DNA of 40,624 bases from positions 1 through 40,624 of the forward strand of contig JAURNW010000003.1 of assembly GCA_030829985.1 (NCBI GenBank), given 5' to 3'. This DNA comes from Gammaproteobacteria bacterium. Lineage in GTDB: Bacteria > Pseudomonadota > Gammaproteobacteria > Eutrophobiales > Eutrophobiaceae. The notes under the pieces were generated by a model that was not told the origin of the DNA, ran no database searches, and saw only the letters and a program-made list of their open reading frames with translations. Both the position numbers and the translations under genes were made by a program. Shown here one piece after another: positions 30,645 to 35,144 of the stretch (positions are counted from its first letter, which is position 1; every line of letters starts with the position of its first letter).

Positions 30645-33560
30645 CTAAACCTGTCCTAATAGATCCTCAGCTTGTTTTCGTTGCTCATCATTGCCGTCAG
30701 CCATTACCTCGTCAAGAATAACTTTGGCACTGTCCTTATCACCTAATTCAACATAAGCCTTGGCAAGATCAAGTTTGGTAGCAATTTCATCATCAGCACT
30801 TTGTTCATCTGGTTGTGATGCTCTGGGAACAAATACCGTATGTTCATCATCATCGTCGTCATCTTCATCCAAATCGACACTTTTTGGTATTTCAACTGTC
30901 CCATCAAAATCAAGACTTATGTCGTCTTCTGATGACTCAGAATCATCATCCAGGTTAAATTCTATGTCCATCTCTGAATCACTGCTAATGTCTTCAGACG
31001 ATTCAATTGACAAATCAGTCTCTCCATCACCATCTGCAGTCATATCAAAATCAAGAGAGATCTCATCATCCGCTTCAGTTCCAGCATTGTCCTCTTCAAT
31101 ATCAAGTTCGATTGAGGCATCATCTTCTTGAATTTCGAGACTCATATCCAAGGCATTATCATCTGTTTCACTGGACGCTGACTCTAATTCAGGAACAGCC
31201 AGATCAATTTCTAAACCAGCATCATCTGCATCGTCCTCACTTGTTTCAATCTCAGGAGCGGCATCATCTTCTTCATTTATACTAAGGTCGAAATCAAGCA
31301 GATTATCATCATCCGTTGATTCGTCTGAATCAGAGGCATCACCTAAGTCAAACTCAACCGTCGCATTATCGTCACCTGCTTCGCCTTTTTCATTTGAAAT
31401 AGACTCATCATTATCCTCTATTTCCAGATCCAGTAATTCAGAAATATCAGCACCAGCGCCAGTTGCAGCAGTTACATCAACAAAACCACCACCGGTAGTA
31501 TCCGCCGCGGCATCGTCTTCATCATCATCACCTGCTTCGAATAATGCTCTTGAAGGAGACATTTCCTGCCACATAGCGACGGCCATATTCCAGTGTTCTC
31601 CTTCACCACCCAAAATTTCATGCAGAACTTTTGCTTCATCTTCGTAACTTTTCTTGTTACCTGATGTGTAAAATACTTCCAGCAGTTTTGTATGGTATTC
31701 AGGGTTTTCTGGGTCATCTTTGATTACATTTCGAACGAATTCTTCAGCTTGATCAAACTGTTCAAATGCTAGATAGGTATTAACCTCTTGCAGTGGGTCT
31801 TCATCAGATTCTTCTTCTACAGGGGCTGCTTGAACTGGGGTACCTTGTGCAGGAGTATCATCTTCATCCGCGACTTGCATTTCAGCATCACTACCTGCCA
31901 CATCTTTGATAATGGTCTCTGCTTCTGCTTCTGCATCTGCGTCAGGCAGAACAGTGACCGCTTCTGAATCTGGCATTTCATCATCAGCGTCACCCAAGTC
32001 AGTAGAATCAAAGTCAGGAAATGCCTCTTCCGTCATTGCATCTATATCAATAGTTTCCGCAGAGTCTTTTTTGAATTTCATAATCACGATGATGATTATC
32101 AGCACAATCAAAACTGCAGCGATTGCCATACCTACCATCGGATTACCGAAAAGGATTTCTTTAACAGGACCAAGGTACTGATCGACCATACCCATAATAC
32201 CGTCAGAATTAGCAGTCGGCTCAGACTCAATTACATCAATAACTTCTTCTTCAACAACCTCAAGTGTCTCTGCTTCATCAGCAATCATTTCATCCGCATC
32301 TTCTACCACGGCTTGATCGTCTATTGCTTCTTCAATGCCTTCCTCAACTTCCGCTACTGCTGCAGAATCCACATCAGTCATTGTTTCATCAACTATGGAC
32401 TCGACTTCTTCAGTCATTCCTTCTGATGTAATGGCTTGCTCTTGCAACGCTGCTAATTCATCGTCTTTTAAAGATAATAGTCGTTTCAGATCGTCGAGTA
32501 ACGCTTCTGACTCTTGAAGTTGATCTTTTAACTCCATATTCTCACGTGTCAATGCTTGAATAGACTCCTGTGCTAATGCCAGATCATCCCCAACGCCTGA
32601 GTCTACACTCGAAACCTGTTGCGTAGCTTCATCTGTATCATCAGCGGCGACCAGCTTAAGTTCGGCGTCTGCTTCAACCGTTTCTGCATCAGTATCAGTA
32701 GCAGTTGAATCTGGCACCGAACTGATTTCTGGACGTTCAGAAACTGCACCGGATAGGTTATCTTTAATGTTATCCCAGACAGCATGTTGTGATTGAACAT
32801 CGGCCAATGCTTCAGCATTAGAAAGCGCAATGAGTTCACTTTCATTTGGCATACGAAGTATCTGACCACGCTTTAAACCATTAATGTTTTGGTTTAAAAA
32901 TGCATCCGGATTAGCACGTAGTAAGGCCAGCATCATTTGGTTGACACTGGTAGATGAATCTGAGCGCATTGCTGATGCAATAGACCATAAAGTATCTGAA
33001 TCTGAAGTCGGCCCGTAATCGCCAGCAGAGTAATTTACATTTGGCGAAGTAACTGAACTGACGGGTTGTTCGAAATCATCTGTATAGATAACTTTTTCAG
33101 CTGGTTCAGCCATTGCCTCACTACTTGGTTGACTACGAGTAAACTCACCATCACGTGCATTAGGGTCATATAATGGTGGATTGAGTAAAACTGTATATTC
33201 ACGAAATAAGCGTCCATTTGACCAACTTACTTCTACCAAAAAGTTTAAAAATGGTTCACGTATAGAATCCTGGCTATAGACTCGAATGTAATCAGGGCCG
33301 TCATCAACCGCACGTCGTAAAGAAAACTTAAGTTTGCTTAATATAAAGGGACGATCTAATTTTGCTCTGGCAAAGGCTTCACTATCAGCCAGATTAACGG
33401 TTAGGGAATCAAGTTCATCAGCCGTTGGTGAAAGTAATTGAATCCTTGCATCAAACGGCTCATTTAATGCTGAATTCAAATCAAGATTACCTAGCCCAAG
33501 CGCATTTGCTAAAGCAGGAACTAAAGCTAATAAGATGACGATATAAAATTTGCGTTTCAT
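30645..33560 (-). CDS. fimV: FimV-type peptidoglycan-binding polar organiser
   Basis: FimV is an inner-membrane polar hub needed for type IV pilus assembly and twitching. The 971 residues show, in order, a signal peptide (1-20), the FimV N-domain (about 21-131), a LysM-like segment (about 189-238, TLWSIASAMRSDSSTSVNQMM to LKRGQILRMP), a coiled coil (about 326-378), an acidic stretch, a transmembrane segment (about 474-496), a TPR-like region starting DPLQEVNTYLAFEQFDQAE, a very Asp/Glu-rich low-complexity region, and the conserved C-terminal TPR (ATKLDLAKAYVELGDKDSAK). I chose ATG 33560 because the 14 upstream residues would spoil the signal peptide. A second FimV N-domain gene precedes it. 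Confidence 0.95.
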   Translation of the reverse strand: MKRKFYIVILLALVPALANALGLGNLDLNSALNEPFDARIQLLSPTADELDSLTVNLADSEAFARAKLDRPFILSKLKFSLRRAVDDGPDYIRVYSQDSIREPFLNFLVEVSWSNGRLFREYTVLLNPPLYDPNARDGEFTRSQPSSEAMAEPAEKVIYTDDFEQPVSSVTSPNVNYSAGDYGPTSDSDTLWSIASAMRSDSSTSVNQMMLALLRANPDAFLNQNINGLKRGQILRMPNESELIALSNAEALADVQSQHAVWDNIKDNLSGAVSERPEISSVPDSTATDTDAETVEADAELKLVAADDTDEATQQVSSVDSGVGDDLALAQESIQALTRENMELKDQLQESEALLDDLKRLLSLKDDELAALQEQAITSEGMTEEVESIVDETMTDVDSAAVAEVEEGIEEAIDDQAVVEDADEMIADEAETLEVVEEEVIDVIESEPTANSDGIMGMVDQYLGPVKEILFGNPMVGMAIAAVLIVLIIIIVIMKFKKDSAETIDIDAMTEEAFPDFDSTDLGDADDEMPDSEAVTVLPDADAEAEAETIIKDVAGSDAEMQVADEDDTPAQGTPVQAAPVEEESDEDPLQEVNTYLAFEQFDQAEEFVRNVIKDDPENPEYHTKLLEVFYTSGNKKSYEDEAKVLHEILGGEGEHWNMAVAMWQEMSPSRALFEAGDDDEDDAAADTTGGGFVDVTAATGAGADISELLDLEIEDNDESISNEKGEAGDDNATVEFDLGDASDSDESTDDDNLLDFDLSINEEDDAAPEIETSEDDADDAGLEIDLAVPELESASSETDDNALDMSLEIQEDDASIELDIEEDNAGTEADDEISLDFDMTADGDGETDLSIESSEDISSDSEMDIEFNLDDDSESSEDDISLDFDGTVEIPKSVDLDEDDDDDDEHTVFVPRASQPDEQSADDEIATKLDLAKAYVELGDKDSAKVILDEVMADGNDEQRKQAEDLLGQV

Positions 33561-33582
33561 TTTTACTTCAATTTCCTTGAAA

Positions 33583-33966
33583 TCAATTATGTGGAGGATC
33601 AATCAAAAAAGAATATTCCCTGACGACATGACCATCAGACCAGCCTATGTCTAATGTAAATTCGACAATTGGCTCACGAATAACATCTTTACTGGTGATC
33701 TTGAGAATATTAATCCCATCACTTTTCAAAACTTTGTATTTTAACTGGTATCGAGATGCATAATCTGTAAGCGGATGCCTTAATTCGATCTTTAGATCAT
33801 CGATTTCAGCCGCATCATCTGTTTTCAGCTCAATTCTGACATCAAGCAATTGATTTAAATGAGAATTTAGCTCAGCTTCAGACAATGCGAGTGCGTGGGC
33901 TGCAAGAGTATAAAAGCCCAAACATGTGAGCATTAATAACTTAAATATTATTTTGTAGACACCCAT
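33583..33966 (-). CDS. Stand-alone FimV N-terminal-domain protein
   Basis: This 127-residue secreted protein has a signal peptide (about 1-25, FKLLMLTCLGFYTLAAHA) and a single domain homologous to residues 21-131 of the adjacent FimV. Compare LNSHLNQLLDVRIEL with LNSALNEPFDARIQL, VIREPIVEFTLDIGWSDG with SIREPFLNFLVEVSWSNG, and VREYSFLIDPP with FREYTVLLNPP. LysM, coiled coil, membrane segment and cytoplasmic TPRs are absent. It ends 22 bases before fimV, so both are probably made together. It appears to be a complete small gene rather than a broken fimV, since it has its own signal peptide and a natural stop after the domain. A periplasmic modulator or partner of FimV is a guess. Confidence 0.85.
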   Translation of the reverse strand: MGVYKIIFKLLMLTCLGFYTLAAHALALSEAELNSHLNQLLDVRIELKTDDAAEIDDLKIELRHPLTDYASRYQLKYKVLKSDGINILKITSKDVIREPIVEFTLDIGWSDGHVVREYSFLIDPPHN

Positions 33967-34121: not shown

Positions 34122-35144
34122 TTATAAGTAGTGTTTTACCAGAATTTCAGCGATTTGAACACTATTTAATGCCGCACCTTTACGAACATTATCTGAAACC
34201 ACCCACATATTCAGGCCACGTGGATGTGAAATATCTTCTCTTATACGACCAACAAATACAGGATCTTCCCCCGCAGCTTCTGTCACAGCAGTAGGGTACC
34301 CACCATCTTCATGATCATCAATGACAGTTATACCTGGCATGTTCACAAGTAATTCTTTTGCTGCCAGCGCACTGATCTTCTCTTTGGTTTCGATATGAAT
34401 AGCTTCTGAATGCCCATAAAAAACCGGAACCCTTACAGCAGTTGGATTAACCAGAATTGATTCATCTTCAAATATCTTTCGTGTTTCCCACACCATTTTC
34501 ATTTCTTCCTTGGTGTAGCCATTATCCTGAAAGACATCGATATGAGGTAAGACATTGAATGCGATTTGTTTCGGATAGACCTCACATTCAATGTCTTTTC
34601 CATTGAGAAGAGCCGCCGTTTGTTTTGCGAGTTCTTCTATTGCTTCTTTACCGGTGCCTGAAACTGCTTGGTAGGTACACACATTGATGCGTTCTATACC
34701 GACCGCATCATAGATTGGTTTTAGCGCAACCAACATTTGAATTGTTGAACAATTCGGATTAGCGATAATGCCACGATTCTTGAAATCCGCGACTGCGTGC
34801 GGATTTACCTCTGGCACGACCAATGGAATATCATGGTCATAACGAAATTGAGAGGTATTATCCACTACTACACAACCCGCCTCAGCAGCAATTGGTGCAT
34901 AGATAGCAGAAACTGATGCACCTGGTGAAAAAAGTCCTATTTGAACTTTACTAAAATCAAACGTTTCGAGGTCTTCAACAATAAGTTGCTTATTTTTAAA
35001 CTGAATACGTTTACCAGCAGAACGACTACTGGCCAAGGCATATACCTCACCTACAGGAAAATCACGTTGTTCCAGAATAGACAACATGGTTTCACCCACT
35101 GCACCTGTCGCGCCAACAACAGCGACATTAAATTTTTCACTCAT
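34122..35144 (-). CDS. asd: Aspartate-semialdehyde dehydrogenase
   Basis: Asd reduces aspartyl phosphate to aspartate semialdehyde for lysine/DAP, threonine and methionine synthesis. The 340 residues have the NADP loop VVGATGAVGETML, the nucleophile C132 in IANPNCSTIQM, the AVSGTGKEAIEEL region and the C-terminal catalytic His in RVPVFYGHSEAIHIE. The size is that of the shorter Pseudomonas/Gram-positive type rather than the 367-residue E. coli type. It follows leuB by 39 bases and precedes the FimV-domain genes by 155 bases. Confidence 0.97.
   Translation of the reverse strand: MSEKFNVAVVGATGAVGETMLSILEQRDFPVGEVYALASSRSAGKRIQFKNKQLIVEDLETFDFSKVQIGLFSPGASVSAIYAPIAAEAGCVVVDNTSQFRYDHDIPLVVPEVNPHAVADFKNRGIIANPNCSTIQMLVALKPIYDAVGIERINVCTYQAVSGTGKEAIEELAKQTAALLNGKDIECEVYPKQIAFNVLPHIDVFQDNGYTKEEMKMVWETRKIFEDESILVNPTAVRVPVFYGHSEAIHIETKEKISALAAKELLVNMPGITVIDDHEDGGYPTAVTEAAGEDPVFVGRIREDISHPRGLNMWVVSDNVRKGAALNSVQIAEILVKHYL

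Follow-up and report, generated by a model that had tools for sequence, protein, structure and literature searches.

The window, i.e., the whole 40,624-nucleotide stretch of DNA from a Gammaproteobacteria bacterium analyzed here (contig JAURNW010000003.1), carries a free-standing gene for a FimV N-domain, designated fs, directly before fimV. FimV is a landmark protein of the bacterial cell pole. Our preferred reading, to which we give a probability of roughly 0.45, is that fs encodes an old, exported Ig-like paralogue that may tune FimV in the periplasm and acts as a modulator rather than a required subunit.

The fs gene and its locus

The fs ORF starts with ATG and encodes 127 amino acids, its frame spanning exactly the positions given in Table 1. 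The FimV_N family (PF25800) matched residues 26–125 over the full profile (1–108 of 108), with an E-value of 2.8e-18 and 66.4 bits against a gathering cut-off of 27. No NCBIfam family was found in fs up to an E-value of 1; TIGR03505 (FimV core/LysM), whose sole match in the genome is fimV, and TIGR03504 (C-terminal TPR), present in the neighboring fimV, are both absent from it. The Ig domain is the last part of the protein, whose only long hydrophobic stretch, as read from the sequence, is the N-terminal leader MGVYKIIFKLLMLTCLGFYTLAAHA. With its lysines, hydrophobic stretch, and A-x-A site, and with no usable lipobox to be read in it, this leader reads as an export-type signal peptide. The initial annotation had described a FimV N-domain with its own signal peptide but no LysM, membrane, or TPR parts, and this description holds, with the domain resting on the PF25800 match and both the putative signal peptide and the hydrophobicity read from the letters. 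The "close homology" to FimV that it had also claimed is too strong a term, as fs is only 34% identical to the N-domain of its own FimV (E-value of 1.2e-15).

Table 1. Features of the asd–fs–fimV locus, with their positions in the window.
Feature	Position	Strand	Basis
fimV: leader, FimV_N Ig domain, LysM core, C-terminal TPR	30645..33560	(-)	ORF, Pfam, NCBIfam
FimV Ig stretch ADSEAFARAKLDRPFILS, residues 58–75; shorter loop in fs	33336..33389	(-)	FimV model, conservation
Gap from fs stop to fimV ATG, 22 bp	33561..33582	(-)	ORF coordinates
fs: free-standing FimV_N (Ig-like) gene	33583..33966	(-)	ORF, PF25800, kept position
Predicted mature Ig-like domain of fs, residues 26–127	33586..33891	(-)	AlphaFold2, general Ig-like matches
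Shortened loop of fs, residues 63–73, in place of FimV's two-helix stretch	33748..33780	(-)	Alignment
Leader of fs, residues 1–25	33892..33966	(-)	Read from sequence; predicted helix 3–17
asd: upstream anchor of the kept order asd–fs–fimV	34122..35144	(-)	NCBIfam TIGR01296, NF011456

The genes upstream of fs are asd and leuB. Downstream, the fimV product has 971 amino acids counted from its ATG and carries both TIGR03505 and TIGR03504. The family search covered 53 genomes of the window's family, using an alignment of 22 intact fs copies as the query, and a search by order returned the identical 53 genomes. An intact fs was found in 28 of them, representing 14 genera, which excludes a chance ORF and bears out the conservation of the tandem among relatives that the initial annotation had proposed to check. 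The gene lies between asd and fimV in all 25 intact genomes for which the stretch compared included asd and fs as well as the start of FimV (G063 and G064 were left out of the locus comparison), so that the tandem position claimed for the window is kept in each of them. With start codons picked by script, the fs–fimV gap ranged from 8 to 60 bp (median 22) across 29 genomes, namely 27 of the 28 fs-intact genomes, G006 with its broken copy, and G176 of another family. Judged by this short gap, fs and fimV are probably read as one transcription unit. Scans for promoters (13 vs. 12.6 in shuffles) and terminators (4 vs. 2.9) returned numbers near chance.

In one genome of the family (G005), a second contig (L053:8265-8690) carries another asd–fs end, and thus the bin may mix two strains; this further fs copy was left out of the analyses.

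Shortened loop and ancestry of fs

The domain comparison was based on an alignment of 28 fs copies with FimV N-domains from the family (46) and from other families (21), plus 10 copies that are lone or extra. The broken fs copies of G006 and G059 and that of G026, which runs into a contig end, were omitted from the fs rows; a contig end also truncates the FimV row of G067. The loop that holds FimV's two-helix stretch measures 11–14 amino acids in 28/28 fs rows vs. 18 in 77/77 other FimV_N rows. The motif AFxRAGIxRPxxL, which is well kept in FimV and has drifted in several lone copies, is missing from every one of the 28 fs rows. AlphaFold2, applied to the Ig domain of the window's FimV (mean pLDDT of 86.6), predicts two short helices for this stretch (residues 60–65 and 72–76). 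The fs model (mean pLDDT of 80.8) has seven predicted strands, and its loop is modeled as coil with the lowest confidence in the domain (pLDDT of 67 for block 61–70). The loss of the conserved stretch suggests that the ligand of fs has changed.

Outside the loop, the fold core is shared. In common with FimV, fs keeps S35, N38, L58, R97-E98-P99, W109, G112, R116, and Y118, and N38, L41, L58, P99, W109, G112, R116, and Y118 are invariant in all 22 aligned fs copies, which are 31–73% identical to the window copy. FimV's GLG start is mostly ALS in fs. A sequence search of solved structures gave no relative (best E-value of 0.68); Fold searches with the fs model returned general Ig-like matches of moderate score, by Foldseek with no E-value of 0.001 or lower and by VIA with a best Z of 8.1, and neither gave a functional lead.

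When the loop columns were left out, all 28 fs rows fell to one side of a branch; its support was 69/90, with 70% of 200 bootstrap trees, and it reached 99 in a quick tree from which five long rows had been removed. This one-sided branch, the purifying selection described below, and the shared shortening of a conserved stretch together support the duplication and specialization that had been proposed for fs; for the same reasons, fs is an old specialized paralogue and not a fresh duplicate.

Outside the family, a search of 370 genomes of the class gave 274 with a match, five of which belong to the window's family. The four best matches were fs copies of family members, and among the matches listed nearly all others were long FimV frames. 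We searched again the 39 genomes that had at least two matches, and one of them (G176, another family) had the order asd–fs–fimV, with a loop of 11 residues. Its copy may group with fs, a placement that was not rejected (p-AU of 0.77), or the tandem copy of G176 may have arisen independently. Lone FimV_N proteins away from fimV, counted as open frames of less than 180 amino acids without stops among the 39 genomes, occurred in at least eight genomes (G168, G268, G135, G266, G269, G169, G259, and G218; the lone copy of G101, at a contig end, was left out). They span at least six other families and have neighbors unlike one another, so the domain exists alone well beyond the window's family. Like fs, these proteins consist of one FimV_N domain with a leader-like start (frames of 136–176 amino acids); unlike fs, they lie away from fimV, keep the 18-residue loop length, and fall outside the fs group of the tree. 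In two genomes of one genus, a lone FimV_N gene (L040:6976-7383 and L043:6907-7314) is located between BrkB-type and HDOD genes, the neighbors in L043 being read by likeness to those in L040.

Among described proteins, the Ig-like (GLB) domain of Pseudomonas FimV, which is known here from a 2026 study of Pseudomonas putida (PMC12918733) and lies outside our alignment, belongs to PF25800, the family of the window's FimV N-domain. The predicted Ig-like fold, the preceding leader, and the core residues are common to fs and the window's FimV; unlike the Ig domain of FimV, fs stands alone, and a shorter loop replaces the two-helix stretch. Compared with the FimV/HubP landmark proteins, fs has a homologous N-domain and its gene sits directly before fimV, but it lacks the LysM core and the C-terminal TPR. 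According to the same study, the Ig domain of P. putida FimV is required for polar placement, HubP has no Ig domain, and the authors suspect an unidentified partner (PMC12918733). In P. putida KT2440, FimV-mCherry from which the Ig domain has been deleted forms mislocalized foci. Our search of openly licensed papers, which is weak evidence of absence, found neither a free-standing FimV N-domain nor an fs–fimV tandem; fs is a member of a known domain family, and the tandem appears new relative to the literature searched.

Role of fs beside FimV

In the mechanism that we favor, fs descends from an old tandem duplication of FimV's periplasmic Ig domain and would be exported alone and probably transcribed together with fimV. 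Its sequence keeps the Ig core and lacks the AFxRAGIxRPxxL stretch, which is modeled as two short helices in FimV. Placed in the periplasm beside the Ig domain of FimV, fs may pair with that domain or occupy the same envelope partner; unable to make the two-helix contacts, it would limit or tune the gathering of FimV at the pole and its service to type IV pili. As FimV persists where fs has been lost, fs would modulate FimV without being a required subunit. The initial annotation had proposed a partner or competitor of FimV, and this is plausible in view of the gene order, the predicted export, the fold that the two have in common, and a weak signal of co-evolution with FimV's Ig domain. A more specific proposal, that fs is a capping subunit or brake that pairs with the FimV Ig domain and cannot extend the cluster, with the fs:FimV ratio setting the size of the polar assembly, is in our estimate an unlikely one. 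As a candidate partner or competitor, fs bears on the binding partner of FimV's Ig domain, which the authors of PMC12918733 leave open. It also offers a natural reagent for the question of FimV polar placement, and it points to AFxRAGIxRPxxL as a first place to mutate.

A rather less likely explanation is that fs works in its own right as a periplasmic adaptor of the pilus or envelope, sharing its ancestry and operon with FimV and making no contact with it. The lone copies in six other families indicate that FimV_N can serve without FimV beside it, and the suggested change of ligand would also suit such a role. PilQ was over the cut-off in 25/28 fs-intact genomes vs. 14/25 others. This pilus link was nonsignificant on independent pairs, as was that of PilT (43 genomes on the tree), and PilQ was over the cut-off in two of two g14 and five of six g17 genomes, none of which has fs. 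The invariable position of fs before fimV in the 25 intact genomes with both neighbors seen also argues against an independent adaptor.

FlhF was over the cut-off in nine of the 53 genomes, all nine of them fs-intact; three or four of six independent pairs agreed with an FlhF–fs link on the 43-genome tree, a test unable to reach 0.05. A purely flagellar role of fs is unlikely in the window's genome, since PilQ and PilT are over the cut-off there and FlhF is not.

Residual tree distances were compared in 17 of 20 genomes, with asd, PilT, BamA, and TolB as controls (G007 without a TolB match, G031 without BamA over the cut-off, and G034 with a broken BamA match were dropped, and the partial TolB of G032 was kept). 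Under all four controls, fs and FimV-Ig correlated with r of 0.26, a value reached in 8 of 500 permutations, and with BamA and TolB as the sole controls r was 0.27 (18/500), both uncorrected, with several pairs tried. The signal was gone across the 17 genomes for fs against FimV-LysM (0.11, 106/500) and against PilQ (0.14, 70/500); the within-FimV yardstick, Ig against LysM, gave 0.31 (9/500). After the envelope controls, fs therefore tracks FimV-Ig and not PilQ, which argues against the independent adaptor. Against the asd and PilT background alone, fs–FimV-Ig gave 0.48, fs–BamA 0.48, and fs–TolB 0.58; because BamA did equally well and TolB better there, the fs–FimV-Ig signal is a hint and no more, though the sole direct one of a relation between fs and FimV. 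The tree distances had at first also pointed to a link between fs and PilQ, which was rejected because it vanished with BamA and TolB among the controls.

Loss and selection within the family

Apart from the 28 fs-intact genomes, fs was broken in six (G003, G006, G008, G030, G033, and G059) and cut by a contig end in one (G026), fimV was present with no fs match in 14, and no FimV_N match whatsoever was found in four of the 53. The copy of G059 has a single stop, while those of G008, G030, and G033 are remnants with stops. The estimated asd–fimV gap was 43–303 bp in 12 of the 14 FimV-bearing genomes without fs and 554–624 bp in 25 fs-intact genomes, and a low-threshold search found no fs remnant in the gaps of G010, G024, G035, and G066. 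Mapped onto an Asd tree covering 43 genomes of the family, the distribution of fs requires eight changes; the gene probably existed early in the history of the family and was then lost several times. The six relatives with broken copies and the 14 FimV-bearing ones without a match indicate that fs is dispensable.

In G003 (8 contigs; L026 and L082), the asd frame is interrupted near residue 81, and PilQ is spread across two frames. As asd is broken there too, the decay of fs in this genome may be an assembly error (indels).

For 14 pairs of intact fs copies, taken with their leaders, NG86 gave dN/dS values of 0.08–0.32, all below 1, vs. 0.02–0.10 for FimV-Ig in the 13 of those pairs with both; in several pairs, synonymous distances approached or exceeded saturation. 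In these 13 pairs, the fs ratio exceeded that of FimV-Ig by factors of 1.3 to 5.8, and two pairs with the broken G006 copy gave 0.35–0.44. YN00 returned values for 11 of the 14 pairs (0.12–0.58). Thus, fs is under purifying selection, which is looser than that on the Ig domain of FimV. The window copy has an open frame and dN/dS values far from 1 (0.136 and 0.113 against G009 and G007, NG86), neither of which marks a pseudogene.

Frame decay in relatives had been named beforehand as the sign of a duplicate left from a domain duplication and drifting to loss. Such decay was indeed found in the six genomes with broken copies (one of them possibly misassembled), and the FimV-bearing genomes without fs and its raised dN/dS relative to FimV-Ig agree with it; it did not extend to the window or to the 28 intact genomes. 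The spread of intact copies over 14 genera, the eight invariant residues, and the dN/dS range, which already weakens this reading, make a dying duplicate improbable as a general explanation; it fits some lineages, not the window's. It is very improbable that the ORF matters solely in cis, with fimV translation being set by coupling to this upstream frame across the short gap, since its fold core and amino acid sequence are conserved with dN/dS below 1 and fimV starts shortly after asd in the 12 FimV-bearing genomes without fs for which the gap was estimated.

In the genus g15 (L090–L092 and L097), six of seven genomes have short FimV frames of 540–618 amino acids, and the seventh has no FimV_N match; PilQ or PilT over the cut-off and fs were each found in none of the seven. 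Two other genomes of the family encode a further FimV_N protein away from fimV, of 209 amino acids in G031 (L051:5557-6186) and 333 in G016 (L052:5888-6889), with a C-terminal tail of SHSMES/HDSHDMKG repeats. A gene for a protein with kinase and FGE-sulfatase domains adjoins this extra gene in G031 and lies approximately 2.8 kb from it in G016.
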